The notes under the pieces are model-generated. The model did no database searches. It saw only the letters and a program-made list of their open reading frames with translations, and was not told the DNA's origin. Source: Owenia fusiformis (lineage: Eukaryota > Annelida > Polychaeta > Sabellida > Oweniidae). From it: a DNA stretch of 64,000 bases. The stretch covers positions 14,738,714-14,802,713 of the forward strand of contig CAIIXF020000007.1 of assembly GCA_903813345.2 (NCBI GenBank), given 5' to 3'. Shown one piece after another: positions 3,632-42,562 of the stretch (positions are counted from its first letter, which is position 1; every line of letters starts with the position of its first letter). Both the position numbers and the translations under genes were made by a program.

Positions 3632-6600
3632 TCAAGGCGTTGTACGACATCCCAGGAAAGCTAGCTGTGTACAATTATTGTAAATTGCTCTGAAGTCACA
3701 CTGGCCAAGTGAATATTCATTACCCAAACATTTTATCTGAATTGCAGGCCATTCATATATCCTACCATTCCAAAAAGGAATATAACGCACTCTCCTTGCA
3801 CGTACATAAGGTCCTGCATCTCTGAATGCAACATAGTCAGCATTGATTTTGTACGCTCTTCTTTCACCTGTAGCAGTGAAACAAAAGACATCTGCAGTTG
3901 GTTTGTCGAAACTATCCCCACAGATCCATCTCCATCCATGCTTTTCACCACTAAACACCTTGATTAACCCTGACTTTGGTGGCATCCATACTCTAAGTTG
4001 ATGGCAATAGACACTGACTCTTCTGTTAGACGAGCATGAAGCCTCATCACCACTCTTAAAGGTACATTCAGCAATGTTTGCTTCATCTCCATTACATTTG
4101 ACATCACTCATCACTATTGGGTCAGCTCTGCCTCCAAGGACATTATTGCTGTCAACACTAACATACATAGGTTTTCCTGGATGTGATACAAAAATCAATG
4201 ATATTACATATTTAACAATCATGTTCAACATAAATCATATGTATATCAAAGTCATAAACGATACACTAGGTGTGAGTAGAAATAATCTTGATTTACGTCA
4301 TTCAGTCAACTGATGTCATATTTGGAATTGACATGTAAAATCACATCTAGAAATGTGGTTTTGAGTTTATCAACTTTGAAAATGTGACTTCTAGGTTCCC
4401 CATGGGCCCCATGTTGTAAAATCACAAAAAGTGAAATATCCTTTTTTGAATTGAGTAGATAATATTTTTACTGGACATATTTTAATTTGGATAACTATAT
4501 CAGATACATAAACACCCTGTGGTATCCAAACTGCGTGCATACTATGCACGCAGTTTGTCACACTGACAAACTGCGCATATCAACATTGCATCATACAAGT
4601 GTTTTCAAACATTTATTCTGCATTGTTTTATAGTTTCATACGTCCATTCAGTGCCGATTTTATGGTTCTACCATGTGATAGCGAAAGTTATGTGTAGATG
4701 AACATAGGTTTTAAAATATAAGCAGATTAATAAAAAGTGTCATCGGCTTTTCGATAACCGACACATAAGGTAAGATGTCGCACTTTACACAGAAAAAGAA
4801 AATACTATATTACTTAAACTACTGTATCTTTCAATATGTGCAAACACAATGGCTAAATAAATTCAAATTACGACAAACAGACATTATATGACGCAATACT
4901 GTATATTTTGAACATGAAAGCTCCTTAGGAACTTTATTTTGAGATATTTCAGTTCATACCAGGAAAAAAATTGAGTGCAACTTGTAAAGAATGCAAATCT
5001 CGACATAATGGTAATGTCTGATAAACAAAACGAGCCTTGTATTTCCAGTACTTTTCATCCTTATGGGAGCCGTGTCCTCCCCGTCTGCCATTTTTAAATA
5101 TGCGCGCAGTTTGTCAGAGATTCAAACTGCGTGTATAGTATTAGAGGGAATACAGTAAGCCTTTTTCATGAATTCAACATTTATTCATAGTTTTTTTGGT
5201 CATGTTGAGTTTACGATTTCATTTGCTGTTCAATTATTTTGTAATAAGATATAATCCATGAACCAAAACATTAATAAAAATAACATGTTGATTTTGTTTA
5301 AATGTTAGTATACTTACTACTTACTGTCAGGTTCATTAAAGGCTCCAGTTTGTCTGCACAGCACTTGTGTTTCCTTAATTCCCCAACCTGTGGCACAAAC
5401 AGCTCCTCTATGATCTTGTGAAATATACACCTCTACTTGGCCCATGAAAGGAAACTCTGTCTTTGCTCTTATATATTCATGTATGCCTGTTTGAGACATA
5501 TAAGGCTGAGTAATCATGTTAAACATCAACTATGTTTATGATTTTTTATGTATTCTATTTTTTAGGTGTAATGTGTAATTAAATAGATAAGGAGCTCTGA
5601 GTAGTGGTTGTTGTAATTGTCTCATGTTTCTACTCTCCCATTATTCCTGTACTTGTAAGCACATAACAGAAATTCTCAAAAATTTCCAGTAACCCATATT
5701 TCATCCACATTGCATCATGGAATACCATGACCCTCTCTTTCTACATCATAGATTGCCATGGAATTTGGTACGGTACTTTCGATTTAGAATTGGTGGAATC
5801 GACGGACGAATCAAATTCGCTTTAACAAACACGTGATTTTAACGTCACAACTCAAAAAGAATTCTCAATTGTTATAACATTAGAAATAAACATCTTATAA
5901 AATCATTGTAAATTTATTCTGTAGGGGAAGAAATTTTTTTTTTAAAAGTATGTCAACTTTTTTACAAGAGTAAACTTCCAGAGAATTTTAAGATTGAATG
6001 GGAAGCCCCACCTACTCAATCAGTGGGATTGGCATGGAAAATCAGAGCAACGAAACACAGACAGGTTTTGAGATGCGATGTGTATCAGCGTCCACATTGT
6101 GCATTTTTTGTTTTATACAAATTCATGCATTTAGCTTATATTGCATTTGGATCTAGATATAACAAACATTTGTACCTGGTTGATAGTCCAAACATTGTAC
6201 TCCTATATTGTAATAGTCACATCTTGAAGCAGTGACCCGAGGCTTAGCATTTCCACATACAATACCGGAGTCAGTATCCTGGCATTCAAACTTCATATAA
6301 TTTGACCTGTGTGGAGCTGTGCGTTGCTGATTATATATCGCAATAGCATGTTCGGGAGGGAAGCCTAAATTTTCACAGATAATACTGGCTTCTGTCTTTG
6401 TCCAATTCTCACTACAGAGACCTTTGTTAAAGTTTGTTATAAATGGTTTACCCACAGAACCATCAGAATCTTTTAAGTGTATTTTTATATCATTGGACAT
6501 GTTACATGCCATATATACTGAAAAATGATAGGTCCAGCTGCACCCAAATCCAAAACCAAAGCGACGACAGTCATATATGCTTTTCTCAGACCCATTGCAG

Positions 6601-9600
6601 CTCTTTGAAGAATAAATAAAATGGTCTGGTGGTGGATGTTTATAGAGAAAGACTGTCCCTATATTAAGTCCAAGATGCTTACACAATACCTTTACATCTT
6701 CCACGTCCCAAACACTAGTGCACATGGTAAACCATTTGTCTCTTATATAAGCCTGAATGTTGCCATATGTCCCTTCACTTAACCTAATTAATGAGACATT
6801 ACATGATACTGTAGGGCTCTTACAATATCCTGTCTCACTCTCAACTTTCCATTTTGAAAATTTGCACTCTCTTATATGTTTTTCAGAACCCTTACATACA
6901 ATATCTGTGTTTATTGATTTTTGGTGTTTCGCTAATGCTGCTTCCCACCTATGAACTACAAATGTGATTGCCACCTGGGCCAAGCCAGATTCGTAGCCAA
7001 GTTGTTGACAGATGGTTTTTGCAAACCCTATAGCCCAGTCATTACCACATACCAAGAGCCATGTATCATTCACATTGACTTTGACTTCTCCATGAGATCT
7101 TTTATCAAGCTTTATAACAGCCGCAGAAACAGCACCTTTTAAATGATGAAAATAATATTCATAAAGTACATCATCATCTACCTTAAAATATAATATCATT
7201 AAAAATCAGCAATGTGTGTTTTTAATTATGATAGGTTTACTTACAAAGTTAACTTACTGTCTGGTTCATCAGGACATGCTATTTCAAAAGGTAGCCTTTC
7301 TCTGAACATGCTGTACATGCTGTAACACAGTCCAGGTGAATGACCAAATAGTGCCCAATCCCCGGCCATTGATGTTATTCCTTGACATTTGGATAACTCT
7401 GTTTCATCATTCTCCCTATGGTAATACCTTGTTACACAGTCAATGTAGGCAATCTCATAGCTAATATCATTGGTTTTTGTGTCTGTGGTTCTAGCATACC
7501 TTGTCTCTAAGCCCAGCCATTTGCATCCTTTATATGATGGTACTCCACAAGCAAGGTGCCATTTATTGGAAACAAACACTTCCAAAAGTCCAGATTTTAA
7601 ACCAGATGTTATCAGTCCTTTTCTAAGTCTAAATTTTGGTTCACATATTCCAGTTACAAGTTCCATGGAATCTGTATGGTTACGAATTTCTGTTTTACAA
7701 TCTTGTAGATTACTTTCTGATCCTTCACATATGAGGGTATAATTCCAAATGGGACCTCTGTAGACAGTCTTTGGCCAATATTTGTGTTTTAAGCCAAATT
7801 CATAGCCAAGTTGCCTACAAGCTACATTTGCTAACAGTCTGGGATGTCCTTGGTAGATGTTCTGCAATTCCCCAGGATTTATCACTGTTCCCCAGACTCC
7901 TTCATGTTTAAGCTCTATCACCCCAGTGTCAGAAATACGAACCTGAGCATCACTTTCATCCTTCTTGCATATAGCAATGGCATCATTGTTTTTCTGGAAT
8001 GTATATACGTATCCTTTACCAAAAGAGGAAAAAGCATTGAGTTGAGCTTAACATTTTGAATTGAATGAATTGCTGCAGTTTTGCAACTTTGTTTGCTTAT
8101 TCCTTGTCTTGCCTATTTACTAAAAGTGATGCTCTAGGACATTATTCATGAAAAACTTTGAATGTATTTCTTTTTTTGATTTCACTTCTCATAAGTTGAT
8201 ACATTTTCTCAACTTATGTATTGATCAAAATATATATTGATACCTCACATTGTGGTGTTTTAAGCCATTCCGGTGTTTCACACTGTCCAATAAATGTTTC
8301 ATTTCCATTGCACTTAACATTCTGAACCCCATATTTTCGTCCCTTGCGTTCATGTCCTCCCCATTTCCTTGGGTTTCTTCTATTGGTTTTGCTGTCTAAA
8401 ATTGCCAGACAAGTTTTGCACATCGATTGTCTATTGGATTTTGTACATTTCTATTTTTAAGTATGTTTTAAAGGTTCAATTAAGACCATAGAAGAAATTT
8501 GGGAGTCATTTTAACTTTCCCGAGCTATTAGTGCAATGTTTGGCCTACTAGTAATGTCTTCATCGCCATACCTATCTTCATAAAATATATGCACTTGTCG
8601 ACGAATACCACCAATCAGACTTGCAAATAGACTTCTAAATAAGCAATTGAAAGTATGGACATCCCGCATTTTGTTTATATCTCCGCCAATATAAGACCGC
8701 ATGTCAGCAGGTTTACAGTATAACTGCGATTGTCTAATATAACAGTATGCATTGTACACGATATGACCGCTGTCGACGGTCTATTACCGGCGAGTCTTGC
8801 AGTTAGCCTTGCCCACTGACGAAAGCAAAAACACCTCAAATCTACCCATATTCAAGGTCTTCTTGACAGGCGCATGGTATATATCAAACAGAATGATGGA
8901 TAGAACTTTAGGTGAAAACAGGGCTGGAATCCAATGACGATATCACCGGGAAATCATTAAAAGGTACGTGAACATTTTTTCTGTCGATGTTTAATGGTTT
9001 TGTGAGAAGATTCCCGGTGATTTAGGATGATTAGTGATTGTGAATATAGGCAGGAATTAGGTACGTTTGGGGGTTTTCTTTGTAGTTAATGAAACTAGAT
9101 GTTAGCCTTGATGAAATATCCAAACGTTGATATATTTTGACACCAGGTGCATGATCATTGGATACATCACTATCTACTCAACCTTTAATGCACAATACAG
9201 CTTTCCAGAGATGCATATATCTGTTATTTATATGTATATGTAGTTATTATACAGTCAGATATTTTGCCTCCTGAAATCATTCTTCATACTTTACCCAGTC
9301 TTTCAAAAAAGTATGCAATATGTGAATGATATTGCCAACAATGTTTAACATGTTATTTAATGCTACATTATAGAACATGACACATTACCAATACCTGATT
9401 TATAAATCTGTGTATTAGAACCATCAGGATCGTACCCTAATTGCCTACATATGACCTTGGCATCATTTACATCCCAGCCATAGTTGCAGACTCTTCGCCA
9501 TTTCCTTTGAAAGTAGACTTCTACCCTGCCTTGGCCTTTATAGGCTTCATTTCCAGTGAGGCGTGCATCAAAGTCATGAGCAAGACGTGCCATTATTCCT

Positions 9601-10296
9601 ATAGTTCAAATAAAAACTGATTCCATTTCTTTTCCCTATTCATGTTTTTTATTTTTGATAAATAGTGGGTCGGTTAAAAATAAAATTCATGTTAAACTAT
9701 CCCATCTGCACTCTGGCTTTAAGGTAGAAGTTCATTGTCTATTATGCAGTCAGTTCGCGCATCTCTTATACCAAAAACTAGAACTGAATAAAACATCAAT
9801 AAATGTTTATTTGAAAATCTCCTCTGGATATTCAAATGCCTCAATTGATTAAGGCGTCATGTCTAATAAGATTTTAAACCTCGAGAGAGTGGGTTTGAAA
9901 CCAGGCAGAATCCATTTTTTCTATTTTTTTCCATTCACAATACATTTTCTTGATCTCTTTTTATCTGACACACTCATGTTGATCTATCAAGACATTTTTG
10001 GCAATATTACTCATTATATACAATGGAATAATAATATTTTCCCACTGATTCATAATATTCAAAGATATTTTTTCTCAAAATCCAGACAGTGAATTTTCAT
10101 AACTATTATATTAATACTTTTGTATTCTCATTGAATATTCACATTTTTGGAATTTCCTATTGAGAGCAATGTTAAATTATAACACCTTTCAGAAATAACT
10201 AAACAGTCAATATTTCACAAGCAACTTTTTATATTGAAAAATAATATCCTACTTACCACTTGTAGATAGGACTACAATGATATAATGAAGCAGCAT
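3632..10296 (-). CDS. SRCR-A: secreted protein with eight group A scavenger receptor cysteine-rich domains
   Basis: Seven exons (5' to 3'): 10296-10257, 9598-9395, 8395-8244, 7993-7258, 7135-6176, 5486-5325, 4176-3632. All junctions are GT/AG, phases 1,1,0,1,1,1, giving 932 residues. Exon 1 encodes a short hydrophobic signal peptide ([13 protein letters not shown]). SRCR1 spans exons 2-3, SRCR2-3 are in exon 4, SRCR4-6 in exon 5, SRCR7 spans exons 6-7 and SRCR8 ends exon 7. Diagnostic motifs include [18 protein letters not shown] and VKCNGNE. Most domains have the six cysteines of group A; SRCR2 has only four. The protein stops 16 residues after a GQC cysteine motif, with no membrane segment or anchor, so it is predicted secreted. 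SRCR proteins bind ligands in immunity and recognition; a specific ligand cannot be read here. SRCR-B and SRCR-C are tandem paralogues. Confidence 0.88.
4266..4440 (-). repeat. Dispersed repeat, inverted relative to a copy at 24290-24510
   Basis: The segment GAGTAGAAATAATCTTGATT, the following TTACGTCATT, and the later GTTTTGAGTTTATCAACTTTG have reverse-complement counterparts, in the same order, at 24290-24510. It lies in the last intron of SRCR-A. Probably a transposon remnant; no coding capacity is seen. Confidence 0.55.
4509..5155. repeat. Inverted-repeat element in the last SRCR-A intron
   Basis: The left end (about 4520-4580) contains ACTATGCACGCAGTTTG followed by TGACAAACTGCGC. The right end (about 5100-5150) is its approximate reverse complement (GCGCAGTTTGTCA, then CAAACTGCGTGTATAGT). 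The left end also folds locally around GCATACTATGC. About 600 bp between ends, no ORF: a non-autonomous DNA element. Confidence 0.55.
9700..9940 (+). repeat. tRNA-derived SINE-like segment in SRCR-A intron 1
   Basis: TTGATTAAGGCGTC (about 9845) resembles the start of a tRNA (A-box side), and GTGGGTTTGAAACC (about 9890) resembles a B box, followed by a T-rich stretch. The surrounding intron sequence has a recognisable relative at 34735-35265 in SRCR-C. Not an intact tRNA. Confidence 0.4.
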
Positions 10297-10444
10297 GGTT
10301 AAAAGCAACATCTATCTTAAGAGTTCCGCTATGTCAGCTGCTTGTCTAAATTATTCATTTGGTATAAACTCTGTATTGTTTTACTATGATGTTAGCTGTT
10401 CACTTGTGCAAATGTCACCAACAATTCATTCCCACTTTATTAAC

Positions 10445-11100: not shown

Positions 11101-11565
11101 TTAAGGTGTTGTACGACACCCCAAGAAAGCTACTTGTGTACAATTGTGAATTGTTCTGAATTCACATTGGCCAAGTGAATATTCATTTCCCAAACATTTT
11201 ATTTTCATGAGAGGTCTTTCAAATAGGCTCCTGCTACCATAGTATCGAAAATAAGCCACTGTCCTTGCACGCACATAGTATTCCGCATTTCTGACTGAAA
11301 CATAGTCAGCATTGATTTTGTATGCTCTTCTTTCACCTGTAGCTGTGAAACAAAAGACATCTGCAGTTGGTTTGTCAAAATTATCCCCACAGATCAATCT
11401 GGAATACCACTTGCCACCAATATCCATGGTGATTAACCCAGATTTTGGTGGTTTCCATACTTTAAGTTGATGACAATAGACACTGACTCTTCTGTTAGAC
11501 GAGCATGAAGCCTCATCACCACTCTTAAAGGTACATTCAGCAATGTTTGCTTCATCTCCATTAAT
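11101..11565 (-). pseudogene. Orphan truncated copy of the SRCR terminal exon
   Basis: The minus strand encodes the SRCR7 tail and SRCR8 ([15 protein letters not shown]; later [13 protein letters not shown] and [10 protein letters not shown]) and ends CRTTP plus stop, like SRCR-A. The homology breaks abruptly at about 11565 inside the codon run for CNGDEAN. Beyond it is AT-rich sequence with no AG acceptor, so the first 30 or so residues of the exon are gone. Its SRCR8 differs at many positions from the near-identical A and B copies. It lies 3' of SRCR-B and 5' of SRCR-A. It cannot be spliced in as a normal exon 7 and is best read as a leftover of a lost paralogue or an unequal crossover. Confidence 0.8.
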
Positions 11566-11712
11566 TAGAATAATTAGAAATCAAAAATAATTCTAAGAAA
11601 ATGCTGTTTTTATTACACGCAAAATAATATTTGTTTTCGTCAAATTAATTTTCTAAAACTCTCGACTAGTTTTTGTAGAATAATATCATCCTCATAAAAT
11701 ATGGACTCCTTT

Positions 11713-14700
11713 TTAAGGCATTGTACGACATCCCAGGAAAGCTAGCTGGGTACAATTATTGTAAATTGCTCTGAAGTCACACTGGCCAAGTGAATATTCA
11801 TTACCCAAACATTTTATATGAATTGCAGGCCATTCATATATCCTACCATTCCAAAAAGGAATGTAACGCACTCTCCTTGCACGTACATAAGGTCCTGCAT
11901 TTCTGAAAGCAACATAGTCAGCATTGATTTTGTATGCTCTTCTTTCACCTGTAGCAGTGAAACAAAAGACATCTGCAGTTGGTTTGTCAAAATTATCCCC
12001 ACAGATCCATCTCCATCCGTGCTTTTCACCACTAAACACCTTGATTAACCCTGATTTTGGTGGCATCCATACTCTAAGTTGATGGCAATAGACACTGACT
12101 CTTCTGTTAGACGAGCATGAAGCCTCATCACCACTCTTAAAGGTACATTCAGCAATGTTTGCTTCATCTCCATTACATTTGACATCACTCATCACTATTG
12201 GGTCAGCTCTGCCTCCAAGGACATTATTGCTGTCAACACTAACATACATAGGTTTTCCTGGATGAGATACAACAATCAACAGTGATATGACATATTTTGC
12301 AATACAGTAGTTCAAAATTAATCATATGCATACGACATATCAACAATTTAAGGAATAAAGACTAAGATTCTATGATTTATTTTGCAATATACGACCAAAA
12401 ATTCAATTTTAATCATTGTTCATTGGCAACAGCCAGAATAAAATTGGAGGTCACATATTTGCCATAAATCATAGAATCAAACAAACCAGGTAAAATGTTT
12501 TTAAATTAAGTGCTCATATACCCCAATATGGACAAACAGATCGATTGTGCTGTTAATGTGGCGTCACATATTTTAGAATGTTAACACCTCCCCTTAATTA
12601 AAGGTTTTGTGTGATATTATAGTATTATTACTTGATGGAGAGTGTGATATTATAGTATTATTACATGATGGAGAGTGTGATATTATAGTATTATTACATG
12701 ATGGAGAGTGTGATATTATAGTATTATTACATGAAGGAGAGTGTGATGTATTGAAATATCCCCTTGAAAGATCAAATATCACATGAGGCAGAGCCGAGCA
12801 TTAATTTTTTTCCGAGTGATGAATTTATGGATTGGTTACAAAAAGGACGTCATACCGGTAACTTGAATCTCGAAACGACAGAGAAATTGTAAACCGTGAA
12901 GTCAGATGTTTATTAAATATTTTAAAGAAATACACCTATTTTGTACACTAGTATTTACATATAAGTAAGTGAGAACATTCCAATTATATAATAAATTTCC
13001 TTCCCCTTCAGGCTGTGGAAAATATTATACATTTTATTAGGTCACATAGGTTTTGGTCATATCAAGTTGAGTTAACACTTTCATTTTAGGATTAAAGACC
13101 TGGGAAATGACTCAGGCATTGTTGACTGAATCATTTCCCTGAAGGTGTTGTTTTCAAATTGTTGCGTGACTGCACAGCAGGAATGCATCAAGTCTTGGGC
13201 TTAAATTCTTTCCACACATAGCAAAATATTCATCTACAAAATCATCTAAAGGATACAAAATCACTTAAAGATAATATTTTCAATGAATCTTTTTGCGAGG
13301 GTCAAGTTGGCAAATCATCATTTTCAATTCGTAGAGTCCAGTTGTCACCTTGACAACTATTTTACAACCATCCAAAGTATGACATTGGGTGCGTTGATTA
13401 TATAATTCATTGCAGTTATTTGAAATGTTTGGATTGGCGGGAATGGGACACAGGTTGCCTTGCTATATGGAAGTTGCTGTTTGATTATTTTGCAATATAT
13501 ACTCCATAAATCAAAACATTTATAAAAAATAACTTAATTTTGTTTAAAAATTATTTTATCATATCGTAGTTTACTTACTGTTAGCTTTATTAAAAGCTCC
13601 AGTTTGTCTGCATAGTACTTGGGTTTCCTTGATTCCCCAGCCTGTAGCACAAACAGCCCCTCTTTGATTGTTTAAGATATTCACCTCTACTTGGCCCAGG
13701 TAAGGAAACTCTGTCTTTGCTCTTATATACTCATCGATACCTGTTTTAGTCATAGGTTTAGAAATAATGTTAAAACTATTATGTTTATATTTGTTTTCTA
13801 TGTTTAATGTGTAATTTAATATAATGGTTAAGAACAGCACCGAGTAGGGCTTGTTTTTGTAATTTTCTCATGTTTTTACTCTCACATTATTTCTGTACTC
13901 AAAAATATCAAGTAATCCATATTTCATCCACATTGTGCATCTTTAATACATACATACTATAAAGTTGTGCATTTAACTTATTGCAATGGGATTTAGATAT
14001 AACAATCATTGGTACCTGGTTGATGATCCAAACATTTTACTCCTACATTGTAATATTCACAGACCCTAGGGACACATTTACATACACTACCAGAGTCAGT
14101 GGCCTGGCATTCAAACTTCACAAAAGTTGATGTGTCTGGAAATGTGCGTTGCTCATGATATATTGGAATAGCATGTTCAGGAGGGAAGCCTAGAGAATCA
14201 CAGATAATACTGGCTTCTGTCTTTGTCCAGTTGTTACTGCAGATACTTTTGTTAATGTTCACTATTTCTGGTTTACCCAAAGAACCAACAGAATCCTTCA
14301 AACGTATTTGTATATCATTGAACATGTCACAAGACATGTATACTGTAGATGCAAAGTCACTATGGCAATGTCGTCCCAAACTGAAGCTACGGCAGTAGTA
14401 CATGCTTTTTTCAGTCCCGATACATCGCCCCCCTGTGTGAACATAATTGTGGCTTGGTGATATGTATTTATATATAAAGACTCTCCCTGTTTTAAATCCC
14501 AGATGTTTGCACAATGCCTTTGAATCTTCCATGTCCCAATTCCGTGTGCACATAGGTAGCCATGTGTCATGAAGAAAAACCTGTATATCTCCATATCTTC
14601 CTTCACTCAGCCTAATTGATGAAACATTACATGATATTACAGGTCTGTGACCCCAAATGCCTGTCTCAACATTCCACTCAGAAAATCTGCACTCTCTTAT

Positions 14701-17700: not shown

Positions 17701-17821
17701 CCATTATTTAAGGTATGCAACTGCGTACCCTCGCGTATGCCTGGTTACTCATCTGTAATGAAAATAAAATATGATACTCACCACTTGTAGACAGGACTGC
17801 AATGATATAATAAAGCAGCAT
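11713..17821 (-). CDS. SRCR-B: secreted protein with eight group A SRCR domains
   Basis: Seven exons: 17821-17782, 17039-16836, 16345-16194, 15773-15074, 14954-14016, 13740-13579, 12257-11713, with the same phases (1,1,0,1,1,1) as SRCR-A, giving 913 residues. The signal peptide is MLLYYIIAVLSTS. Exon sizes match A exactly for exons 1, 2, 3, 6 and 7 (40, 204, 152, 162 and 545 nt); exons 4 and 5 are shorter (700 and 939 nt). Domain order is as in A. SRCR2 also lacks the first and fifth cysteines of the six. The stop follows CRTMP, with no membrane anchor, so it is predicted secreted. Exon 7 differs from A at only four residues, whereas exons 4-6 differ much more. Next to A in the same direction; each has its own signal exon and upstream sequence, so separate transcription is likely. 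Confidence 0.88.
12609..12740. repeat. 33-bp tandem repeat, four copies, in SRCR-B intron 6
   Basis: Four near-identical units of the form GTGTGATATTATAGTATTAT plus TACATGATGGAGA run head to tail. AT-rich, no known function. Confidence 0.9.
17240..17290 (-). pseudogene. Decayed duplicate of the SRCR signal-peptide exon
   Basis: On the minus strand, GTTCACTATGTTACTATCAT followed by TGTAGCCATATTTACAAATG and an intact GTGAGT donor aligns with exon 1 of SRCR-C (GTTCACAATGCTGCTGCATA...). About seven bases are missing, so the ATG frame now hits TAG after five codons, and the frame that would match the donor has no ATG before a stop. It lies in SRCR-B intron 1, 200 bp before exon 2. Confidence 0.65.
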
Positions 17822-18831: not shown

Positions 18832-18882
18832 GCAAGCTAAGAGGAAGTTAGATGAATATTCATTCTTTGGCAATATTCTATA
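18832..18882 (+). pseudogene. Duplicated start of an RBM48 exon, with its own splice acceptor
   Basis: After TTTTAG the sequence reads QAKRKLDEYSFFGNIL in the RBM48 frame, then runs into Y-rich codons and an in-frame TGA. The genuine exon 73 bases downstream reads HAKRKLDDYSFFGNVL. Most nucleotide differences between the two are synonymous or conservative. Confidence 0.75.
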
Positions 18883-18904
18883 TTATTCCTTTCTATGATT
18901 CCAG

Positions 18905-21273: not shown

Positions 21274-21289
21274 ACGTTGTTCTAAGTTA

Positions 21290-23185: not shown

Positions 23186-23229
23186 TTTCAAAATTGTCTT
23201 CAATACTCATGACTTTGTATCAGGATATC

Positions 23230-31100: not shown

Positions 31101-34100
31101 GTTTCATCTAAACATTCCAAGAAACATGCATTAATTTAAAACTCTTTGAAATATTATCAAAAAGGGAAACAGGGTACAGCTAAGTTGCAAATGGAGGACG
31201 TGGGTTTAATTCCATATTTCTGGACTTAAAATACATTTTACATTTATTTTTAGTGATCTACCAGACATAGAATTGATTCATCAAGCAGTTTGTAGAATAT
31301 TGTAGGCAAAAAACCACTATAGGCAAAGAAAGATAATAGTGGGCGCAGTGAAGCAAAACTTGAATGCAATGCACGATACATTCCAGTAAATCTATTAATG
31401 TACAGGGAGCATGTAAGTTTCCCTTAGAAAATTTTACATTGATTTGTAACAAAAAAACACTTAACTGTTGTTTAAACTGCGTGTCATCGTGTTATATGTG
31501 GATACGTTTTCCAGTATGTTATTCAAAGATTCTTCACATGTAGTTCAGGCAATTTTAATTATTTTGAATAGCGGATTGTCATTAATACTGATTATCATAA
31601 ACGTGTTCATATTTAATTTCGTTATTTTATTTCAATTTGATACCCTAGTAACACGTATAATCTAGCGTTCTTGTTAATTTAATGACTAAAATATATATAC
31701 GACCTGAAAGCCTGTGTCTATCTACAAAATAATGTTTACTTTATTTTGATTTAGTAACAATTGATGACACCTCAAAGCATCAACAGGCGGCCTTTTTAGC
31801 ATTATTTTCACTGTTTGCAACGTAAATGAACATGAGATCTGGACATAGTATGTCTGTATAATCAGCTTACTTTCTCGCTCCCTGTACTATTGAACAAATT
31901 ACATTCCTTGTACCCTGTATTGATCAACTTTTGCAACTGTGTACCGTGTACTATGACATATAACATATTTTAAAATTTAAAACGATATTATTTACATTCT
32001 TTCTTGAACTATCATATAACTTGGAACATGGACTTAACAATTGCACCACTGAAGTTCAGCGAATAGCAATATTGACTCACTCTGAGCACCAAACGTAGTA
32101 ACCTTTGACTTAGCAGTCGATATACTCAAAAGCGACCTGGTTGAAAGCCAAAAAACTTGTGCATGCGCAATCGAGGTAGGGTAGTGTGGATATTGTGAAG
32201 GGTATGATATCACTTGCAATTTAGTGTGGAGTCAATTGAGCTGAAACGCTATTGAAAGCATGTTATACAACAGCAAATATTGCAAGTGTTTGGGGATTAA
32301 AACTTTTTAACCTGAATGCAACACTGTTAGGCTTATAACTGGGGTAACATTTTTAGTTATTGATATAGGTTCTGACAAATGCATTTCAATCAGTTCCTTG
32401 TATATGTAATGAATAATATTGCAGTATTCTTTCCACTTGAATCTTTTTTGTGAAGTTCAGTCAATTAAAAATATTTATTTTATTATTGGAATGCATGCAT
32501 ATGTCTGTATGTGAAACTAATGTATATTTCTACTTTGATGTAGCCTTCCTAGTAGTTTGCAATAACAACTTTTCGATTTACCGCCAGGATAACTTGGCAC
32601 ACAGTATGTCAAAAATGTCATGGTCAAAAGGTGCGCAAAAATAACAACACTTCAGAGGTTGACAGTTTCACCCTATGCAGACAGAGCCTGTGGGAAATAT
32701 TGGGTGCGGAGCAAATGAGCGGAGGGTGCGGAGCTAACGGTCATTTTTGAATTTAAATTTGGGATATTTCTGAAACTAAGCTGTTTTGGGGCCAAGATAT
32801 GTGTATTTGACACCAAATATCAATACAATTGTGAAAACAGTAGTGCAATTTATTTTATAGCGACGCAGTGTGCCTTAAACCTTTCCCAGACCTATATATT
32901 TTGAAATTATCCTTTTAATACTGAGTCCGCAGCATTCATAAAAAATGGTGTTCAAGGTACACTATCTATACAAGTTATTTTTGCATCTTGGAAGCCAGGC
33001 AGTATCTGTGTGATTTTATAAAAATTCGGAAATGTTTTTCAGATATGAGCCCCCTCTAAATATTGGGTGCGGAGGAGCTCCATAAACGTACCTCCGCACC
33101 CAATATTTAGAGGGGGCTCATATCTGAAGAACATTTCCGAATTTTTATAAAATCACACAGATACTGCCTGGCTTCCAAGAGGCAAAAATAATTTGCATGG
33201 GTAGTGTATCTTGAACACCATTTTTTATGAATGCTGGGGACGCAGTATTAAAAGGATAGTCTCAAAATATATAGGTCTGGGAAATGTTAAAGGCATACTG
33301 CGTCGCTATAAAATGAATTGCACTACTATTTTCACAATTTTATTGATATTTGGTGTCAAATACACATATCTTGGTATATTTGAAGTCCCAAAACGGCTTA
33401 GTTTCAGAAATATCCCAATTTTAAATTCAAAAATGACCGTTAGCTCCGCACCCTCCGCTCATTTGCGCCGCACCCAATATTTCCCACAGGCTCTATCTGC
33501 ATAGGGTGAGTTTCATCTTAATAAATCATGTTTTTTGTGCGGAAATATCACAAGTTTTGTAGTCAAAATAACAAAAGAGATGTTATTTGTGCTAAATACA
33601 AGCTAATAAGAGATTCTGAAATAAGTTTTAGTACAACTTTGAAAATTGTTTATGATTTCTAATATAACATACTTTTGTCTGGTTCATCTGAGCATGTAAA
33701 TCCACACTTCCAATCTGTCATAGAGATCCATCGACATTTAGACAGTTCTTCTTCATCATCACAACCAATCCAGGCACTTTGAAAACTTGTATCAATAAGT
33801 CTGCGTTCTGCCTCACTGGCAGGTGACATCTCTAACCCAAGCCAATTACATGCTGTTTTGGGTGATGGACCACAAACGTTGTACCATTTGTTTGAAATCA
33901 AGACTTCCAGTATTCCAGATTTAGTTAGGCCTTTTCCTACTCTAAATTTCTCTGGACACATTGCGTATATATAATTACAGGAACTTCCTGTCTCATAAAT
34001 TCTACGAAATGTGCTGCATTCCTGTAATTTTCTTTCTGTACCATCACACACAATGTCATATAGCCGAATGGGACCTCGGTAATCTCTTCTGTCCTTTTCT

Positions 34101-37100
34101 AAAACTAGACCAAATTCATAGCCGAGTTGTCTACATGATACATCTGCAAGAACTTTCTCAAGCTGGTTAGCGTTCCCTGTGTAACATACCAATCCCCAGA
34201 CTCCATCATGTTTCAATTCCACCCGTCCAATGTCAGAAATACGAAGATCATTATCACTGTCATCTTTCTTGCATATAGCAATGGCATCATGGTTTTCCTG
34301 AAATATGCTTAGAGAGTTCAATCTTAACCATATTCAGTATAGCATTGGACATATTAGACTGTGATTTTACCTGTTACATTGATTTTATTAAAGACAAGAA
34401 AGCACATAGCACATGAAATGGATGCATCTGTTCTCATCAGTTGTCAGTAGTGTATAAGGAGGTTTACAAGGTAATATATAAGGTTTCTTCTCAATATTAA
34501 TTGACATCATAGCCTGGTCTGGTTTATCATGAAAAGGTAACTTGATTCATTAAATCATTACCCTTGTAATTTTACCTTGCATTTCTTTGATCTCTTAAGT
34601 AATTTCATTTTGCATTCTCCAATGAATGTTTCATTCCCATGGCACATAACGCTATGAATGCCATATTGCGTTCCTGACACATTGCCCCATTTCCTTGGGT
34701 TTATTCTATCAGTTTTGCTGTCTGAAATTGTCAACAAACATAAGGATTATTCTTTTAAGGAAGAACTTCACTGTCTACTGCCCAGTCTGTTTTGGCATCT
34801 GAGGTCAGGCTCATGTCTGGAAGGAAGTGGTTTGAATCGCGGCTGTGGTAATAATTTTTGTTTTTTCTTTTTCTTTTCTTCCCTTTTGAACTAAAATACT
34901 TTATAAGGTACACTCATGTAGATCACTCAATACCTTAATTTAGCAATTTATATGTCATCAAATACAATAGAATCACAATATTTCCCCACTTATGAATTAA
35001 AAGCTATTTTATTTTTTTCTTGTGATCCAGATGGTGAATTTTCATTAACATATATTATTTGAACACTTAAGATTACTAAAGAATGATCATTATTTTTTTT
35101 AAAGAAAATCTGCATCGTGAAATTTTTCTTAAAAATGCATTTCCTCATTGAAGCCATGTTAAATTAAAATATTAATATTAATCTAGAAATAACCAGATGG
35201 TCAATCTTGCTAATTTTCAGACATTTTGTTATTAATCAGTATATCTTTCACCTTGATTTGCCAAACTCAAACTGGTGATTTATGCGGATGACACTAATAT
35301 ATTATGTAGTGATTCCAATCTTGATAATTTGACCACAACTGTAAATTCTGAACTGTGTGACATCAATGATTGGTTGTTGGCTAATAAACTCACTTTAAAT
35401 GTTAAGAAAACAAAATATATGGTCTTTGGAAATAAGAGAAATATATCTGTGACCAATGAAATGAAAAATTGCAAATTCTAACCTAGAAAAAGTAGATGAG
35501 ATAGGATTCCTGTGAGTAATTATTGATTCAAAATTATCTTGGGCTCCCCATATCAATGCGCTTCATAGAAAAGTTTCAAATGTTATAGGAATGTTATATC
35601 GAACAAATTATGCTTATACTTTAAAATCAAAGATGATAATATATAACTCTCTGATTTTTTCTCATCTTAATTACCGTAATATTTTATGGGGAAATGCTTG
35701 TAAGATTTTAAATAAAATACCTCGATATTGCAAAAGAAATTTGTTAGATTAATAACAAATTCAGAAAGATTAGCTCACACATTCCCAATTTTTCAAGATC
35801 TTGAAATACTTAACATTTATCATATTCACACAATCCAAACTGTTTCTTTCATGAAAAAAGTTATAAGCAAATCTATAAAGTTCCCTTCAAAATTATACGA
35901 TCACTATTTTAAAACTAGAGAAAAAATACATTAACGTATAACTCGTATAAATTAGACATAACTTAGATATTCCTAAACATAGAACCAGAATTGGTGAAAA
36001 TTCTATTAAGGTCCATGGTTCATATATTTGGAATTCCCTCAATGAAGATATTAGAAATAAACCATTAAATTCACTCATATCTCGTTTGAAAATTGACCTC
36101 CTGAGTACAGAAGAACCAAAACATTTATTTTATTTCTTTATTGTCTCATTTATTGTATTTGTATATTGTATTCATATTATATTATATTATTGTATTGACC
36201 TATGTACCACTTTAAATGTTCACAGTTTATCATGTTTATTGTAAATTTAATTATGGGCAGTTATACACCCCCTGGGGTGTCATAGCCCGTATAATGTTGT
36301 AAATTTTGTAATGAAAACTGAAATAAATTATTTTGAAATTGATTGAATTGAATTGAAATTGATTTTTTTCAAGAAAATTTGCGGTATAGAAAAAAAGTTG
36401 ATTGACATTGAAGTTCTACCTTTAGCTACATTCTTCATTATCTTTTGTTTCTTAAAAATCTTCAGGGAATAACAGTAAAATACAGTAAATATGACATCAT
36501 AGGATATTTATATTACCATTACTATAGTAATTTATACTATATATATAAAATATATATAATATATGGTAATATAATAATATATAATAATATTCTTACACGT
36601 CGCACGAAACTGGGGACAATTAGCGTAACATTATGGCGTCAAAAAAACAAAACAAAACTATGAGCAGCATAGGGCGCAAACAGACTTACAACGTCAAAAA
36701 CGACAAGCGTCACATTTTTGTCAAGTTTAGTCAACCTAAAAATAAAATACTTTATCCTATCTAATCATGACAAAATTCACAGGGTAGCAAGATCTCGAGG
36801 ACAATATTTCTAAAATGTTTTTGAATTTTGAAAAACGGTCAAGAAATTCAGTTGGGGCATTGGTAAATATTGATATGTATGGAATTTGTGGTAAAAAATC
36901 GATGCGTCACATTTTTTCAAGTCTCGAAAACCAGCTCTTATTTCAATATTATTTGCAAAATAAACAAACTGGTTATTGTTTTGTAAATTTCGCCATGACA
37001 ATATTGTGCAGTAAATTTTTTTTTCAAATCAGACTTGAATTAGAAGGTTAAATGAAGGTAAACTTATTGCTCGTCCCATTCGCCTTCAAAACCTTACACA

Positions 37101-40100
37101 ATTTTGAAAATTTTAAAAGCGTTCATATATGATAATTTGAACTGTAGCCGTTAAGCAATTGTGACGTCATAAATGAACATGTTCCATTGAATAAATTATG
37201 AAATTTTAGTGGGATTTTGATCATTATTTCAAAGGTTATCCCAATTTCAACGAGCCCTGTAAGTGTAAAGTGTTACGTCTTACAGCGTATTTGACGATGT
37301 CGGGATATATTTAACTTTAAAAATATGTTGGATCCCATCAAAATTTTGAAGAAAAAATAATTTCACTGAAATGCGAATAAAAAATACTTCAAAATGATAT
37401 ATAAAACACATAGCTAGCTTTTTAAATGAGGCAAATATTAACGCTCAAAGCTGAAATCAGCCCGTATTTTCTGAATTGTCCCCAGGTCTGTGCACGTCAT
37501 ATCTACAAAAAACTGACACTAAACAATATTTATATTGCAAATGAAACCCATGTCATGGAATATTTAATTTTCTTTGGTATAACGAAACATATGAGTTAAA
37601 AAATAATTTGTGAAGTATTCTTAGTGTTTTTATGAGGTCGCTTAGGCTGCAAAATATTTTTCATATGCTAAAACATTGAAGTTGCACATTAGATATGACA
37701 TTTAACAAAGAAATAGTGTGTCCTTTGTTCAATCTTTGCAATGGTGCTAAAAAGATAATGTACTGTATAGTTGAATTTTTTATGATTAAAAATGTTCAAC
37801 TTTTATTTGAAATATGCGAGAAAATTGAATATTTGAGAAATGAAGCTGACAACTTTTTTCAAAAATCTCTAAAATAACTTTTAAAGTCATGACAAACAGT
37901 AAATTAATGATAAAAACATGGGGACTTAAATGATGACCTCTTTATCGATCCTTTTACATCCCAAATCCCAAACCCATATAGCTCAGTGGTATAGCTATAC
38001 CAATTACGCATAGTTGGTCCCGGATCAGATATCTGGTTCAAGCACTTTGCTTGTTGCATTAAGTACCTCAGGGTGTTTGACTGAGTGGTTAATGACTTGT
38101 AAAAAGGCTGTGGTGTGTACTTGTATGCCTGTATGAGTGCATCTTTCAGGATTATTTGTGGAAATTATGACTTTACATGCAGGATATACCCAAGAGGTAT
38201 TCCTCATCTTCATTGGTGGAACAATTGATACAGTACATTACAATAAAAGCTTCTTGAATTTGTAACACATTTTCTCTTGAAAAAACATTTTTGTTACATT
38301 TTTGTGTATACCTGAATTATATAACTGTGCCTCAGATCCTACAGAATCATATCCTAATTGTCTACATATGACCTTGGCATCATTTTTATCCCAGCCATAG
38401 TTGCAGACTCTTCGCCATCTTTTTTTATAAAAGATTCCAACCCTGCCTTGGCCTTCAACTCCTTTATACCCTGAGAGTTGGACATCAAAGTCATCCATCT
38501 TGGATTCTATTGTCATTACTGGAGTAAAAATCACTGTTTTGAACCATAAATTGTTCTCAATATTTGATCTGAAATATTTCAATTCCAATTGTGGAATGAT
38601 TAAGTTGAACAAAACCTGTGTGTTTATAATTATCAAGAGCATGAAACCTTTAATCAAAAATTCCACATTACTACATGTTCCTTCATAATCATTCCCCAAG
38701 TGAAAAAAATAGCGCCATACCACTCTAATAAACCACTAATAGACTACTAATACTCAACTAGTAGAACATGTTCTATTAGTGATTTGTTAGTGGTGATTTT
38801 CATTAACAGACCACTTTTTGCCATTGACTTAACAAGGTGGTTTATTAGATGAAAAAATTACCATGCAAATGAGATAACAATTATTGACCAATCAGAGAGC
38901 ATGTAATATACTACTAATAGATCACTCCTGAAGTCTCAAGTATTACTAATAGACCACTAATACATCACTCCCTGAAGTCTTATACACCAATAATACACCA
39001 CTACTAGTCTAATAGACGACTAACAAATCGCTCCTGAAATCTCAGAATTTTATACATCCATGAGATACAAAATCTCTTTAGTGCTAAATTCAGTAAGAAA
39101 TATGTTTAAGATTTAACATGTACATCTTCTACATACCTTTATGATTATGCTGAGTAGGATTCAATAAAGTCCAGTCACCCTTCTGGTTGTAATGCTACAT
39201 TTCATTGTAGAATTAATTCTCTCACATTTTAACTATTTCCACCATTTAAAAGGGGTTTCTCATTCTAAATCAAGGATCAGTTTAACACACTATTAATAGA
39301 CTATTCCAAAAAAATCGAGTTAATACACAACTTACAAACCACTCCACCTAAAAAACCTTAAAGTGGTTTATTAGTTGAGTATTGCCAGTTTTAATACATA
39401 ACTTAAGACCACTTGACTAAATCACTTTTCATGGTGTATTGGTGATCTATTGGTGATGTATTAGTGGTATATTAGATTTATTTTTTACTTGATCATATAT
39501 GACATGTATGAAAACAAATGGATGGATTGATGGTTGGACAGACATAGGGATGGATTGATGACTGAATGTACGGACGGACAGACAGATGAAATGACAGATG
39601 GGTGGAGGAATGGATAGACTGAGGGACAGACAGATATACAGTATGTATGGATGAATTGATGGATGGACAGATGCATGGACAGAAGGATGGATGGGGAGTC
39701 TGTTAACTATATGGTGTTGTCATTACCCTGCTATGTTGATGTAGGTTCTGTGTATACAGGCTTGTCAACCTCGGAACACCTAAAATGAGTGCATGTTGAA
39801 CACCTACCTTCAAATTGTGAATACCTTGGTCCAAATCTTAACATCTTGGTCCAAATTTTGATTATTGCATATATCCAAATTTTGGGCACCTCAAATTTTT
39901 CACACTCGCAGTGGTAGGTACAAGAAGATTTTAAGCAAATATGTGACATACAGGGTGTTTACTAAGTAATGACACTAAGTCTCCCATTTTGTGAAAGCAA
40001 TTCTCGGTTTGGAGAACAGTCTCCTGGGCTTATAATTTTTTTCATGAAAAATATAGAAATATTACCCAAATTAAACTATGAATATTCAAAAGAGGACATT

Positions 40101-42562
40101 TGAATCTACAAGATGTACAAATAACAAATTGGTCTGAAGCAGGGATAAGCTCAATTAGACCGATTCAATAAAATACAAGTCTCGATTTTGGGGAAAGAAG
40201 TTCATCAGTGTACTGCGCTAATATTTTTTTGCGAAAAATCTAGAAATATTACTCAAATTAAATTATGACTATTCAAAGGAAGACATTCAACTCTATATTA
40301 TGTCAAAAAATCAAATTTGTCCGAAGCAGGGATAATGCTCATTTAGATTGATGAACTTCGTTCTCCAAACTGAGAATCGTCCTTTTAAGGAATCTTGCTT
40401 AATTCCCATCATCTTAAAAATGTTATTGTGAGTTTATTTGAAATGTTAATGATGAAATAATGGTTGGTATAGCAACTTGATGACGGGTGCGTTGCAGACA
40501 TCAATTTTACTCAATTTTGATGAAACGATGTATATTATGATCAGGTTTTACGTAATTTTGAGCTATGCATTCTCCATTAAATTAATTATGGTAGTTGGTT
40601 ATTCAAAATATGTCCTGTATATAGTGGTTACATTCATAGTATGACATCATAATAGTCTTAGTTAAGAAGATATCTGGGATGACTGTGATCTCCACAAGTC
40701 TTAGTTGGAAAGTCTGCCAAAGTTAAACCTGCACATCGCTCCAAAACGCAATATTTTGACATATATTGTTTTTACATTTTCAAGCTCTAATATCAAAGAA
40801 CAATCATTTAGTTAAAAAAAGAAAAAAAACGTGAATGCGGGACTCGAACCCGGGCCGCCTGCGTGCTGGGCCAGCATTCTACCGCTGGGCTACCAATTCA
40901 TTATGAATGATGAGTGTAATTAAACGCTACTTATTTTGAATGCTATAATTCGGAAGTGATGTCACGTTCTTAATTTAGAAACCTTCCAAAAATCATATTG
41001 TCGTCGACAATCGAAGCAATTCAATGAATAATCATTGTATAATGACACATTTATCGTGAGTATTTGTACACATGATTTGCCCCATTTGTTCATCATTCTA
41101 TAATCTTTCATTAAGCTCAAAATGAATAAGTTCACCCCCGAAACAACCCAAGATTGCGTTTTGGAGCGATGTGCAGGTTTAAAAAACATCATCGGAAAAC
41201 AGCTGGTTTTGTGGAAATGGGAAACTTGCTGCAACATGGGTGTCATACTTCATAGTAGTCCATAGAGATAGGACAGAATGCAGATCATTATTCACCAAAT
41301 GAAATTGAACTACATTTCCATGCTATTGGACTCCTAAAGAGTCAACAGTTTCATTCTGATGAGAAAATTGTAAGGATAGCCAGATTCTAAATAAAATTAA
41401 ATAAGATTCGATTGGCCAAACTTGATGTTTTCCAACAATGGGGGTTCAAGGCTAAACAACAAAAAGCATTGAAGCAGAAACAAATTACTTTTAAGTGAAT
41501 ATTATATCCACTGGACATGGACCTAGACAGTAGAGTGTTGGATATAAATATTGTATCATTTGCTAAAGTGGTATGCTCAGAATTAAATGTTCCTTATTGT
41601 TAAATGTGACGTCATATGTGTTGTTTTAAGGACCATGTTACAAAATCGATATGTAACTATTTTATTCTTGAGAAATGAAATTTGGTATGAGCACTCATTA
41701 TAACATGCCTGATAATATGTGCAAATTTAGAAAGATTGGTTAAAATCTGTAGAAATGGGAGACCTAATGTCATTACTTAGTGAACACCCTGTATATGCAA
41801 TTGGCATGAACATTTTTCACTGTTTTTTGTCATTCTTTTTTTGACGTTCTTCTCCTGAAATATTTTAGTTTGACAATAATCAGATAAAATGAGTACTTGA
41901 GTGACATATTCTGTCATGCAAAACACGGACATGACTTCAATTTCTTCAGCAATTAAGTGACAAATATGCAAATTGCGGGACAGTTGGAAGGCCTGCATAT
42001 GGTAATAATCAAGCAAGGTCCCCTAATATTTGAATATGCTGAATTTAGATAGTCTTTTCTTCCAGAAATGCTTCAAGAATATAAAGTGTGAGTGTGGGGT
42101 TGGAGGGGGGGGGGGTAATTCAGCAATCCCCCCTCCTCCCCATGGACCTCTTATATATTCTTGTTTAACCATCTATGATGCATTGCTGTACAATGCGAAA
42201 GGGATGTTTCTAAATTCTTAACAGCATAGGAGTCAAAACTGGTTCTTTTTTTGAGTGAGCATGTCTCTGAAACAGATCCACATTATTCCATAATACCCCT
42301 AAACCTAAATGCCGTTTCTAAATAAACCATTATTACTTGCTAAGGGACACCACTCAACTAAATATTCATCACGGGTGACAATCAATTCAGCGAATTCATT
42401 ATGGCTGATAATTTATTCAACAAGTTTCAATGCAACAGGAAATGTTAATATAATGTACTCACCATAATTTATTAAATGAGTTACAATATAACAGGAACAG
42501 ATATAATGTTGAATATACTCACCACTTGCAGAGAAAACTACAATAATGTTATGCAGCAGCAT
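25161..42562 (-). CDS. SRCR-C: third secreted eight-SRCR paralogue, introns enlarged by insertions
   Basis: Seven exons: 42562-42523, 38518-38312, 34721-34576, 34297-33673, 28336-27401, 26067-25906, 25699-25161. Phases match SRCR-A and -B, giving 884 residues. The signal peptide is [17 protein letters not shown]1 spans exons 2-3 ([18 protein letters not shown]); exon 4 holds SRCR2-3, exon 5 SRCR4-6, exons 6-7 SRCR7, exon 7 SRCR8. Unlike A and B, SRCR2 keeps all six cysteines (GLVCYTGN and [10 protein letters not shown] present). The second half of exon 7 is strongly diverged ([16 protein letters not shown]; ends YCKVEK), while its first half matches A and B closely. No membrane anchor. The gene spans 17.4 kb against 6-7 kb for A and B, because introns 1, 2 and 4 hold a LINE fragment, palindromes and TIR elements. 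Confidence 0.85.
26300..26990. repeat. Diverged tandem and inverted repeats in SRCR-C intron 5
   Basis: GCCATTTTGAAGGTTTTTC recurs near 26557, 26670, 26812 and 26965, each followed or preceded by ATCTTGTTTTCTGGTGGC-like text; a copy in the opposite orientation (AAACAAGGTGGCCACCCAAA) lies near 26325. About 110-150 bp per unit. Confidence 0.65.
28430..28481 (-). repeat. Truncated tRNA-like SINE segment
   Basis: On the minus strand GGAGGTTGTGGGTTTGATTC resembles a tRNA B box. The element stops exactly where the TIR element at 28482 begins. Confidence 0.35.
28482..30800. mobile_element. 2.3-kb TIR element, CAGGGTG family, TA-flanked
   Basis: The left end is TACAGGGTGGTCAAAAAACA and the right end is the complement of an almost identical sequence (GTTTTCTGGACCACCCTGTA). 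TA at both edges fits a Tc1/mariner-type target duplication. No transposase ORF is visible, so it is non-autonomous. The interior has diverged repeats around TGCCCATGGGCAATT. It lies in SRCR-C intron 4. Relatives: 39951-41791 and 55215-55338. Confidence 0.8.
29764..29856. repeat. Hairpin with 19-bp perfect stem
   Basis: GCCCACACTCCCACAAAAA pairs with TTTTTGTGGGAGTGTGGGC, with a loop of about 55 bases. Inside the 28482-30800 element. Confidence 0.85.
32668..33509. mobile_element. 842-bp near-perfect palindrome (foldback element)
   Basis: The sequence starting TCACCCTATGCAGACAGAGC returns in reverse complement up to ATAGGGTGA at 33509. Arms are about 400 bp each and meet near 33085, around GGAGCTCCATAAACGTACCTCC. 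Arms carry two copies each of a TGGGTGCGGAG motif. Only scattered mismatches separate the arms, which suggests a recent origin or ongoing arm homogenisation. It lies about 160 bp 3' of SRCR-C exon 4. Confidence 0.85.
34735..35265. other. Segment of SRCR-C intron 2 homologous to SRCR-A intron 1
   Basis: TAAGGAAGAACTTCACTGTC here corresponds to TAAGGTAGAAGTTCATTGTC in A (9722). Later anchors also match: CCAGATGGTGAATTTTCATT (35028) against CCAGACAGTGAATTTTCATA (10082), and AGAAATAACCAGATGGTCAA (35184) against AGAAATAACTAAACAGTCAA (10191). The match ends where the LINE fragment begins. Confidence 0.55.
35268..36350 (+). mobile_element. 5'-truncated non-LTR retrotransposon (reverse transcriptase end)
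   Basis: The plus strand reads [12 protein letters not shown], the RT catalytic YADD motif, followed by [20 protein letters not shown] and, after frame breaks, [15 protein letters not shown] and [13 protein letters not shown]. These are hallmarks of Jockey/CR1/L2-type elements. A 3' UTR follows, with CTGGGGTGTCATAGCCC and a (TTGAA)n-like tail at about 36330-36350. The 5' end, endonuclease and most of the RT are absent and the frame is broken. A dead copy inside SRCR-C intron 2. Confidence 0.85.
36351..37970. other. Rest of SRCR-C intron 2, no gene
   Basis: AT-rich sequence with short (AT)n runs near 36535-36590. No exon or element that I can support. Confidence 0.4.
37975..38215 (+). repeat. 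tRNA-derived SINE-like element
   Basis: TATAGCTCAGTGGTATAG is a good A box and CTGGTTCAAGCAC, 50 bases on, a weaker B box. An unrelated tail of about 170 bp follows. It lies just 3' of SRCR-C exon 2. Acceptor and anticodon stems do not form, so not a tRNA gene. Confidence 0.5.
38716..39472. repeat. Element built of CCACTAATA-type repeats with inverted ends
   Basis: The left end has CCACTAATAGACTACTAATA-like units; the right end has the complementary orientation (GATGTATTAGTGGTATATTA). Many short copies of both orientations lie between. It lies in SRCR-C intron 1. Confidence 0.65.
39512..39700. repeat. GGAT/GGAC microsatellite
   Basis: Imperfect run of GATGGATG and GGACAGAC units. Confidence 0.85.
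40723..41182. mobile_element. Nested 460-bp inverted-repeat element enclosing a tRNA-like sequence
   Basis: AAACCTGCACATCGCTCCAA plus AACGCAAT (40725-40752) has an exact 28-bp reverse complement at 41153-41180. Between the arms lies a tRNA-like segment (40833-40900). No ORF. Confidence 0.8.
40833..40900 (-). tRNA. tRNA-like sequence (pseudo-tRNA or SINE head)
   Basis: The minus strand holds TAGCCCAGCGGTAGAATGC (A box intact) and CCCGGGTTCGAGTCCCGC (B box and T arm, four of five pairs). The D stem has two C-A mismatches, the anticodon stem has one mismatch, position 33 is C instead of T, and no acceptor stem pairs. Pol III promoter elements survive but a functional tRNA is unlikely. Confidence 0.5.

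Follow-up and report, generated by a model that had tools for sequence, protein, structure and literature searches.

We rebuilt three minus-strand SRCR genes, SRCR-A, SRCR-B and SRCR-C, in the window (the whole 64,000-nt stretch of DNA analyzed). Homologous exons were placed by tblastn with peptides from the window, and splice borders were compared across all three copies. Each gene has seven exons and no internal stop, and the phases following exons 1-6 are 1,1,0,1,1,1 in SRCR-A, -B and -C alike (Table 1). GT-AG ends are present at 18 of 18 introns, a count that is partly by construction because borders were picked with this rule in mind. On the sequence evidence, independent support for the models is the agreement of frame, phase and position across three diverged copies. 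The signal exon encodes a hydrophobic start that is conserved in all three genes. SRCR-A and SRCR-C each have an extra in-frame ATG, 15 nt and 9 nt upstream of the start, so their proteins could be longer by 5 and 3 residues, respectively. We conclude that SRCR-A, SRCR-B and SRCR-C are real, open genes.

Table 1. SRCR genes, their exons and related tracts, in window positions.
Feature	Positions	Strand	Content
SRCR-A gene	10296-3632	-	932 aa
SRCR-A exon 1	10257..10296	-	40 nt, signal peptide (putative)
SRCR-A exon 2	9395..9598	-	domain 1, first part
SRCR-A exon 3	8244..8395	-	domain 1, middle
SRCR-A exon 4	7258..7993	-	domain 1 end with last Cys; domains 2, 3
SRCR-A exon 5	6176..7135	-	domains 4-6
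SRCR-A exon 6	5325..5486	-	domain 7, first half
SRCR-A exon 7	3632..4176	-	domain 7, second half; domain 8; stop
SRCR-B gene	17821-11713	-	913 aa
SRCR-B exon 1	17782..17821	-	signal peptide (putative)
SRCR-B exon 2	16836..17039	-	
SRCR-B exon 3	16194..16345	-	
SRCR-B exon 4	15074..15773	-	
SRCR-B exon 5	14016..14954	-	
SRCR-B exon 6	13579..13740	-	
SRCR-B exon 7	11713..12257	-	
SRCR-C gene	42562-25161	-	884 aa
SRCR-C exon 1	42523..42562	-	signal peptide (putative)
SRCR-C exon 2	38312..38518	-	
SRCR-C exon 3	34576..34721	-	
SRCR-C exon 4	33673..34297	-	
SRCR-C exon 5	27401..28336	-	
SRCR-C exon 6	25906..26067	-	
SRCR-C exon 7	25161..25699	-	
Exon 7 cassette tract in SRCR-B	11700..12332	-	633 columns, 95.7% identical to 3619-4245
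Partner tract in SRCR-A	3619..4245	-	shared exon 7 cassette
Exon 7b, 5'-truncated second copy of last exon	11104..11562	-	open to stop at 11103-11101

An earlier note on this DNA had described three related genes, each with a 40-nt signal exon, six further exons of identical phase and a product of 932, 913 or 884 residues. The rebuilt models reproduced all of this. The note had not mentioned an RBM48-like gene on the plus strand that sits between SRCR-B and SRCR-C, and it had missed exon 7b (11562-11104). It had also placed domain 1 over exons 2-3. The border between exons 3 and 4 precedes the last cysteine of domain 1 (DAIAIC lies in exon 4), and domain 1 therefore spans exons 2-4; the rest of the proposed domain split matches the models.

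Several other features surround the SRCR genes. Introns, SRCR domains and the RBM48-like neighbor together point to DNA of an animal. The RBM48-like gene was recognized from positions 18852-19166, which match RNA-binding protein 48 in the PDB (E = 9e-14). A 336-residue ORF at 19561-20571 on the plus strand matched nothing in Pfam at an E limit of 0.01; our guess is that it belongs to the same gene (18852-20571). A possible histidine acid phosphatase exon lies on the minus strand at 52820-53101 (His_Phos_2, E 0.0029, below the curated cut-off). Open frames at 1272-3134 on the minus strand contain Cys/His-rich stretches with a weak C2H2 match (E 0.34), none above the Pfam cut-off in the pieces scanned, and the same region includes a tandem repeat at 1909-2468 (152 nt, 3.7 copies). 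A minisatellite of ~51-nt units (10496-10875, 7.5 copies) starts ~200 nt upstream of the SRCR-A signal exon, and an array at 47760-48474 has 23 copies of ~31-nt units. Searches of the window found no RNA genes at Rfam gathering scores and no tRNA.

Each protein contains eight SRCR units, identified from the cysteine pattern and an alignment of the domains. Pfam scans of whole SRCR-A and SRCR-C placed both in the SRCR superfamily, with PF00530 scores of 274.4 and 286.3 bits against a cut-off of 26.1, and marked 7 SRCR stretches in each. The eighth unit is clear from its cysteines and position in the sequence. With an E limit of 1, A and C matched only SRCR, SRCR_2 and Hepsin-SRCR; the last of these was under its cut-off in A and above it in C. 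The Pfam scan of SRCR-B covered the exon 3 and exon 6 ORFs. When a profile built from the 24 domains was run over all six frames of the window (stop-to-stop, >=15 codons), it recovered only the exons of the three genes and the exon 7b fragment; the next match had E = 0.68.

We compared the domains with the established SRCR groups. Exactly six cysteines, the number typical of group A, are present in 19 of the 24 domains; the exceptions are domain 2 of A and of B (4 each), domain 4 of B (5), domain 6 of B (7) and domain 4 of C (7). According to the review PMC3100851, a group A domain is encoded by two exons and a group B domain by one. The SRCR-A/B/C genes do not follow the group A plan of at least two exons per domain, as introns interrupt only domain 1 (exons 2-4) and domain 7 (exons 6-7) and six of the eight positions are uninterrupted. 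The group B pattern of CD163, WC1 and DMBT1, with eight cysteines and one exon per domain, does not apply either: no domain among the 24 has eight cysteines, exon 5 holds three domains, and domains 1 and 7 are divided. Group C, the sponge type, has seven cysteines including an extra C1; by count, seven occur in 2 of 24 domains (B_D6 and C_D4), at differing places.

A tree of the domains bears on the history of the array. Each position from 1 to 8 forms its own three-member group, which requires 7 label changes, the minimum, and a count this low was reached in 0 of 200 shuffles. Support is modest for positions 1, 4 and 5 (90/95, 67/24 and 90/92). Because the domains group by position, the eight-domain order predates the gene duplications. 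The deep forks between positions have support of 32/62 or are open, and the tree gives no order of descent for the eight domains. The intron of domain 7 and the first of the inner introns of domain 1 each fall in the C3-C5 loop, in phase 1, 26-28 residues before C5. Their exact homology is not certain from the alignment, since the loop lengths differ and the two introns are set a few columns apart. Most simply, the two introns would be left from a domain that was split in the ancestor, and the six uninterrupted domains would have lost this intron or arisen without it.

The earlier note had taken the shared exon plan as the mark of one gene lineage, and the position-wise tree bears this out. 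It had further argued that the irregular packing of domains sets this lineage apart. The common ancestry of the three genes stands, but irregular packing is not itself unusual: in a 29-species survey (PMC10855680), each SRCR domain has its own exon in a sea-urchin cluster and takes up three exons in sponge, and a single urchin cluster of 16 SRCR genes includes seven different exon plans. Thus, the exon plan mainly shows common descent of the three genes and not a new class.

The proteins are predicted to be secreted. All three have a hydrophobic N-terminus, and the signal peptide is putative, as judged by hydrophobicity and conservation. No hydrophobic anchor was found in A, B or C, where the best 19-residue mean past residue 30 was 1.04, 0.81 and 0.71, respectively. 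The C-termini read RTTP, RTMP and KVEK, and the transmembrane segment and cytoplasmic tail of CD163 and WC1 have no counterpart here. In A and C, Pfam matches with E as high as 1 included no CUB, ZP or other accessory domain. The claim of the earlier note that anchor and accessory domains are absent was thus upheld, by hydrophobicity for all three proteins and by Pfam for A and C. The sequences contain 9 (A), 10 (B) and 8 (C) N-glycosylation sequons.

We found that the three proteins have diverged under constraint. dN/dS is 0.51 for A-B, 0.49 for A-C and 0.50 for B-C, with bootstrap intervals within 0.41-0.64. The ratio is uneven among domains, ranging from 0.21-0.29 in domain 7 to 0.60-0.90 in domain 4. 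Domain 7 is the most conserved across the three genes (A is 87% and B 81% identical to C, with dN/dS of 0.21 and 0.23), and domains 2-6 and 8 of C have diverged. In domains 1-6, the C3-C5 loops show dN/dS of 0.65, 0.66 and 0.77 for the three pairs, versus 0.51, 0.44 and 0.47 elsewhere. Cysteine columns are invariant in 43 of 52 cases, compared with 416 of 861 ungapped columns overall, and four of the nine non-invariant cysteine columns look like alignment shifts. Domain 2 of A and B lacks both C2 and C7, and C retains both; in group B domains these two cysteines form a pair (PMC3100851). Cysteine conservation, dN/dS and the paired loss of C2 and C7 argue for folded, working proteins. Against this, domain 4 of SRCR-B has lost C7 and retained C2, and the cysteine total of SRCR-C is odd (49), which makes disulfide-linked assembly or some decay possible.

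The last exon has a separate history in SRCR-A and SRCR-B. The exon 7 tract that they share runs from 13 nt behind the stop to ~70 nt inside intron 6. Elsewhere, A-B tract identity is 77% with exons 4-5 and 75% with exon 6; identity is 91.4% in exon 2 and 93.2% in exon 3, where both matches are confined to about the exon. We considered the tract borders as sole proof of conversion and rejected them, as the matches in exons 2 and 3 are equally exon-confined. Since borders alone prove nothing, the case for exon sharing rests on silent sites. Exon 7 shows 7 silent differences at ~122 sites (dS 0.06), and dS for exons 1-6 is 0.10, 0.11, 0.17, 0.25, 0.45 and 0.42. Silent sites of A and B show their longest unbroken agreement across alignment codons 766-945 (25 codons, p = 5e-5); at the nucleotide level the longest run spans codons 763-831 (p = 2e-4). 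These patterns strongly indicate that the last exon became common to A and B through conversion or copying after the genes diverged. The low dS in exons 1-3 (0.10-0.17 vs 0.25-0.45 in exons 4-6) points to a possible second shared stretch at the 5' end. We make no claim of conversion between A and C, for which the longest silent run was 6 codons in exon 5 (p = 0.0028) and the nucleotide version gave p = 0.23, and the longest silent run between B and C had p = 0.33. The 5' flanks of A (10232-10514) and B (17756-18029), which include the signal exon, are 72.6% alike, and the upstream region was probably duplicated together with the gene.

A truncated second copy of the last exon, exon 7b, lies behind SRCR-B. 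Its frame stays open for 153 codons up to a stop, and AATAAA follows at 11056, ~45 nt past that stop. The beginning of exon 7, with C5 of domain 7, is missing from it. Its dS is 0.27 to A7 and 0.25 to B7; the overall A-B dS is 0.26. It shows 63 differences from A7 and B7: the 7b branch accounts for 20 (3 silent and 17 replacement), the A7/B7 stem for another 20 (7 silent and 13 replacement), and 23 are unpolarised. Exon 7b is most likely a displaced or duplicated relic. In one fitting history, SRCR-B originally ended with 7b and later received B7 as a copy of the exon in A. Nearly as good a fit is obtained if 7b is left over from a fourth gene, or if the duplication is older and B7 was converted afterwards. 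We also considered whether 7b might be a working alternative last exon of SRCR-B, which would bear on 7b and not on the family. The open frame and AATAAA suit this idea, as do two AG sites in the 7b frame (11555 and 11549) that would keep the phase when joined to exon 6; ahead of 11555, pyrimidines make up a share of 0.55, within the 0.40-0.70 seen at the 18 real acceptors. However, the product would have a broken domain 7, and the excess of replacements on the 7b branch (17 of 20, a small sample) suits a relic. We regard a working exon as improbable.

We compared the domains with the cation sites of SALSA and CD163. PMC7043408 reports that SALSA SRCR8 binds ligands via cations held by D1019, D1020 and E1086, among others, that D1019A or D1020A alone abolished binding, and that D, E, N or Q can substitute at the cation-site residues. 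Asp186 and Glu252 are named as CD163 calcium ligands in PMC12273918. We set the D1019-D1020 dyad directly after C2, using the residue spacing in PMC7043408, the SALSA sequence and the position of CD163 Asp186 two residues after C2. CD163 Glu252 did not map onto the Glu after C5, so that part of the mapping is not confirmed.

The Asp-Asp dyad after C2 was present in 0 of 24 domains of the alignment, two of which are without C2 itself. Asp occupies the second dyad position in domain 8 only (3 of 24); a single D, E or N at one of the two positions is seen in 11 of 24 domains, and two such residues in none. At the deeper site 1, the Asp pair is present in domain 1 of every gene and also in domain 5 of SRCR-A and SRCR-B. 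Glu lies four residues after C5 in 17 domains as printed, or 18 if C_D4 is re-anchored on the second of two adjacent cysteines. Thus, the SALSA-type combination of Asp-Asp after C2 and Glu after C5 was not found in these proteins. AlphaFold models of exon 5 and exon 4 alone (three sequences each) had mean pLDDT of 37.5 and 32.6; both were unusable, and the dyad result rests on the alignment. As a control, the dyad appeared in 2 of 6 legible CD163 domains of the alignment, so individual domains lacking it are not rare. The telling point in the alignment is its absence from all eight positions across three paralogues. With the dyad missing from 24 of 24 domains, the calcium bridge of SALSA and CD163 is probably not used, at least not via the main site, and it is unlikely as the main binding mode. 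Some calcium binding could remain, given the single ligands in 11 domains and the Glu after C5.

We propose that SRCR-A, -B and -C would be soluble, multivalent, group-A-like SRCR proteins that probably bind extracellular targets without the classical calcium bridge, a reading to which we give roughly even credence. Each paralogue encodes a short putative signal peptide and eight group-A-like (six-cysteine) domains, and each protein would offer eight different domain surfaces to its targets in extracellular fluid, mucus or matrix. Sharing of the last exon between A and B after the genes diverged is strongly indicated, and target binding would probably proceed without the main site used by SALSA and CD163. 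The role in immunity or gamete recognition raised by the earlier note stays an inference. In a stronger version, none of the eight domains of this secreted lineage uses the cation bridge any longer, and the last domain is renewed when the terminal exon is copied from one neighboring gene to another; B would then end with exon 7 of A, with its former exon 7b surviving behind it as a displaced relic. We rate this version as improbable: close, tightly bounded similarity between A and B is seen in exons 2-3 as well, and one possible cation ligand persists in 11 of 24 domains.

We weighed rival explanations of these proteins. A DMBT1/SALSA-type agglutinin, which clumps microbes via calcium-bridged binding to anionic surfaces, is likewise a soluble multi-SRCR protein, and predicted secretion, multivalency and the SRCR-only architecture all fit this role, as does the possible cation ligand at the dyad in 11 of 24 domains. 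Domain 1 contains an 11-residue stretch near the DMBT1 motif in A and in B (GRVEVYFKRKW), and less so in C; the bacteria-binding peptide of DMBT1 is GRVEVLYRGSW and the CD163 peptide is GRIEIKFQGRW, as given in PMC3100851. PMC10855680 also reports high expression of invertebrate SRCR genes in digestive glands. The uniform lack of the dyad stands against a SALSA-type agglutinin, as does the lack of CUB or ZP domains in A and C, and we consider this explanation possible but doubtful. The missing dyad speaks against the calcium-bridged mode in particular; a microbial role remains compatible with the sequences because domain 1 of A and B keeps the DMBT1-like stretch.

Structural or adhesive proteins of the extracellular matrix or mucus, as opposed to recognition proteins, could also have eight different domains in fixed order and carry the sequons counted above, and unpaired or extra cysteines could cross-link their chains. 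The fairly fast, loop-biased divergence is less expected for a structural protein, which leaves this role unlikely. The faster C3-C5 loops of domains 1-6 in all three pairs would instead suit a reproductive or egg-coat family, and a putative secreted SRCR protein is reported from snail oviducts in PMC8614816. Whole-protein dN/dS intervals that all stay at or below 0.64 give no overall sign of positive selection, however, and the locus has nothing pointing to gametes, so we view a reproductive family as very unlikely. Soluble SRCR proteins that bind without the classical bridge remain our preferred reading.

We compared the locus with known SRCR systems. The phrase 'eight srcr domains' did not occur in the 20 papers that one literature search listed. 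Searches for relatives in viral and genome contig collections yielded 33 and 72 pattern stretches, 0 of which were confirmed by tblastn, and phage records searched with domains 7-8 of SRCR-A gave no confirmed relative. SRCR genes rank among the large expanded recognition families of invertebrates. What this locus adds is the apparent sharing of a last exon, with a remnant behind SRCR-B, and a cation dyad that is missing throughout. A small fixed-plan cluster without a dyad that was proposed as a general SRCR site offers a clean case for asking whether SRCR domains at large bind their targets via calcium.

SRCR-A, -B and -C form a small set of paralogues whose predicted products are secreted and made of SRCR domains alone. 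Genes of the SRCR-only kind are common in invertebrates and make up 53.66% of the 1747 genes surveyed in PMC10855680. The same survey describes tandem SRCR-only clusters in sea urchin and sponge, like that of A/B/C, and in sea urchin the expanded type consists of six-cysteine group A genes, again like A/B/C. Compared by description, A/B/C differ from the urchin and sponge plans in their fixed eight domains, 1,1,0,1,1,1 phases and six intron-free positions. The soluble chicken SRCR protein PIT54, which matched at E = 4.2e-30 (PDB 9h0m), is shorter than A/B/C at 508 residues. We take it to be a plasma protein with four domains. DMBT1/SALSA resembles A/B/C in being a secreted multi-SRCR protein and in the bacteria-binding-like peptide of domain 1, but has CUB and ZP domains; A/B/C have neither (Pfam, A and C), and have six-cysteine domains and no dyad. 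Among solved structures, CD163 is the closest in sequence (E = 2.2e-53), and it also has a long SRCR array. For CD163 and WC1, the authors of PMC2906472 suggest homogenizing gene conversion, which is reminiscent of exon 7 of A and B. These proteins differ from A/B/C in their group B domains (6-8 Cys) and their transmembrane and cytoplasmic exons, as PMC2906472 describes, and the dyad seen in 2 of 6 legible CD163 domains is found in 0 of 24 domains of A/B/C.
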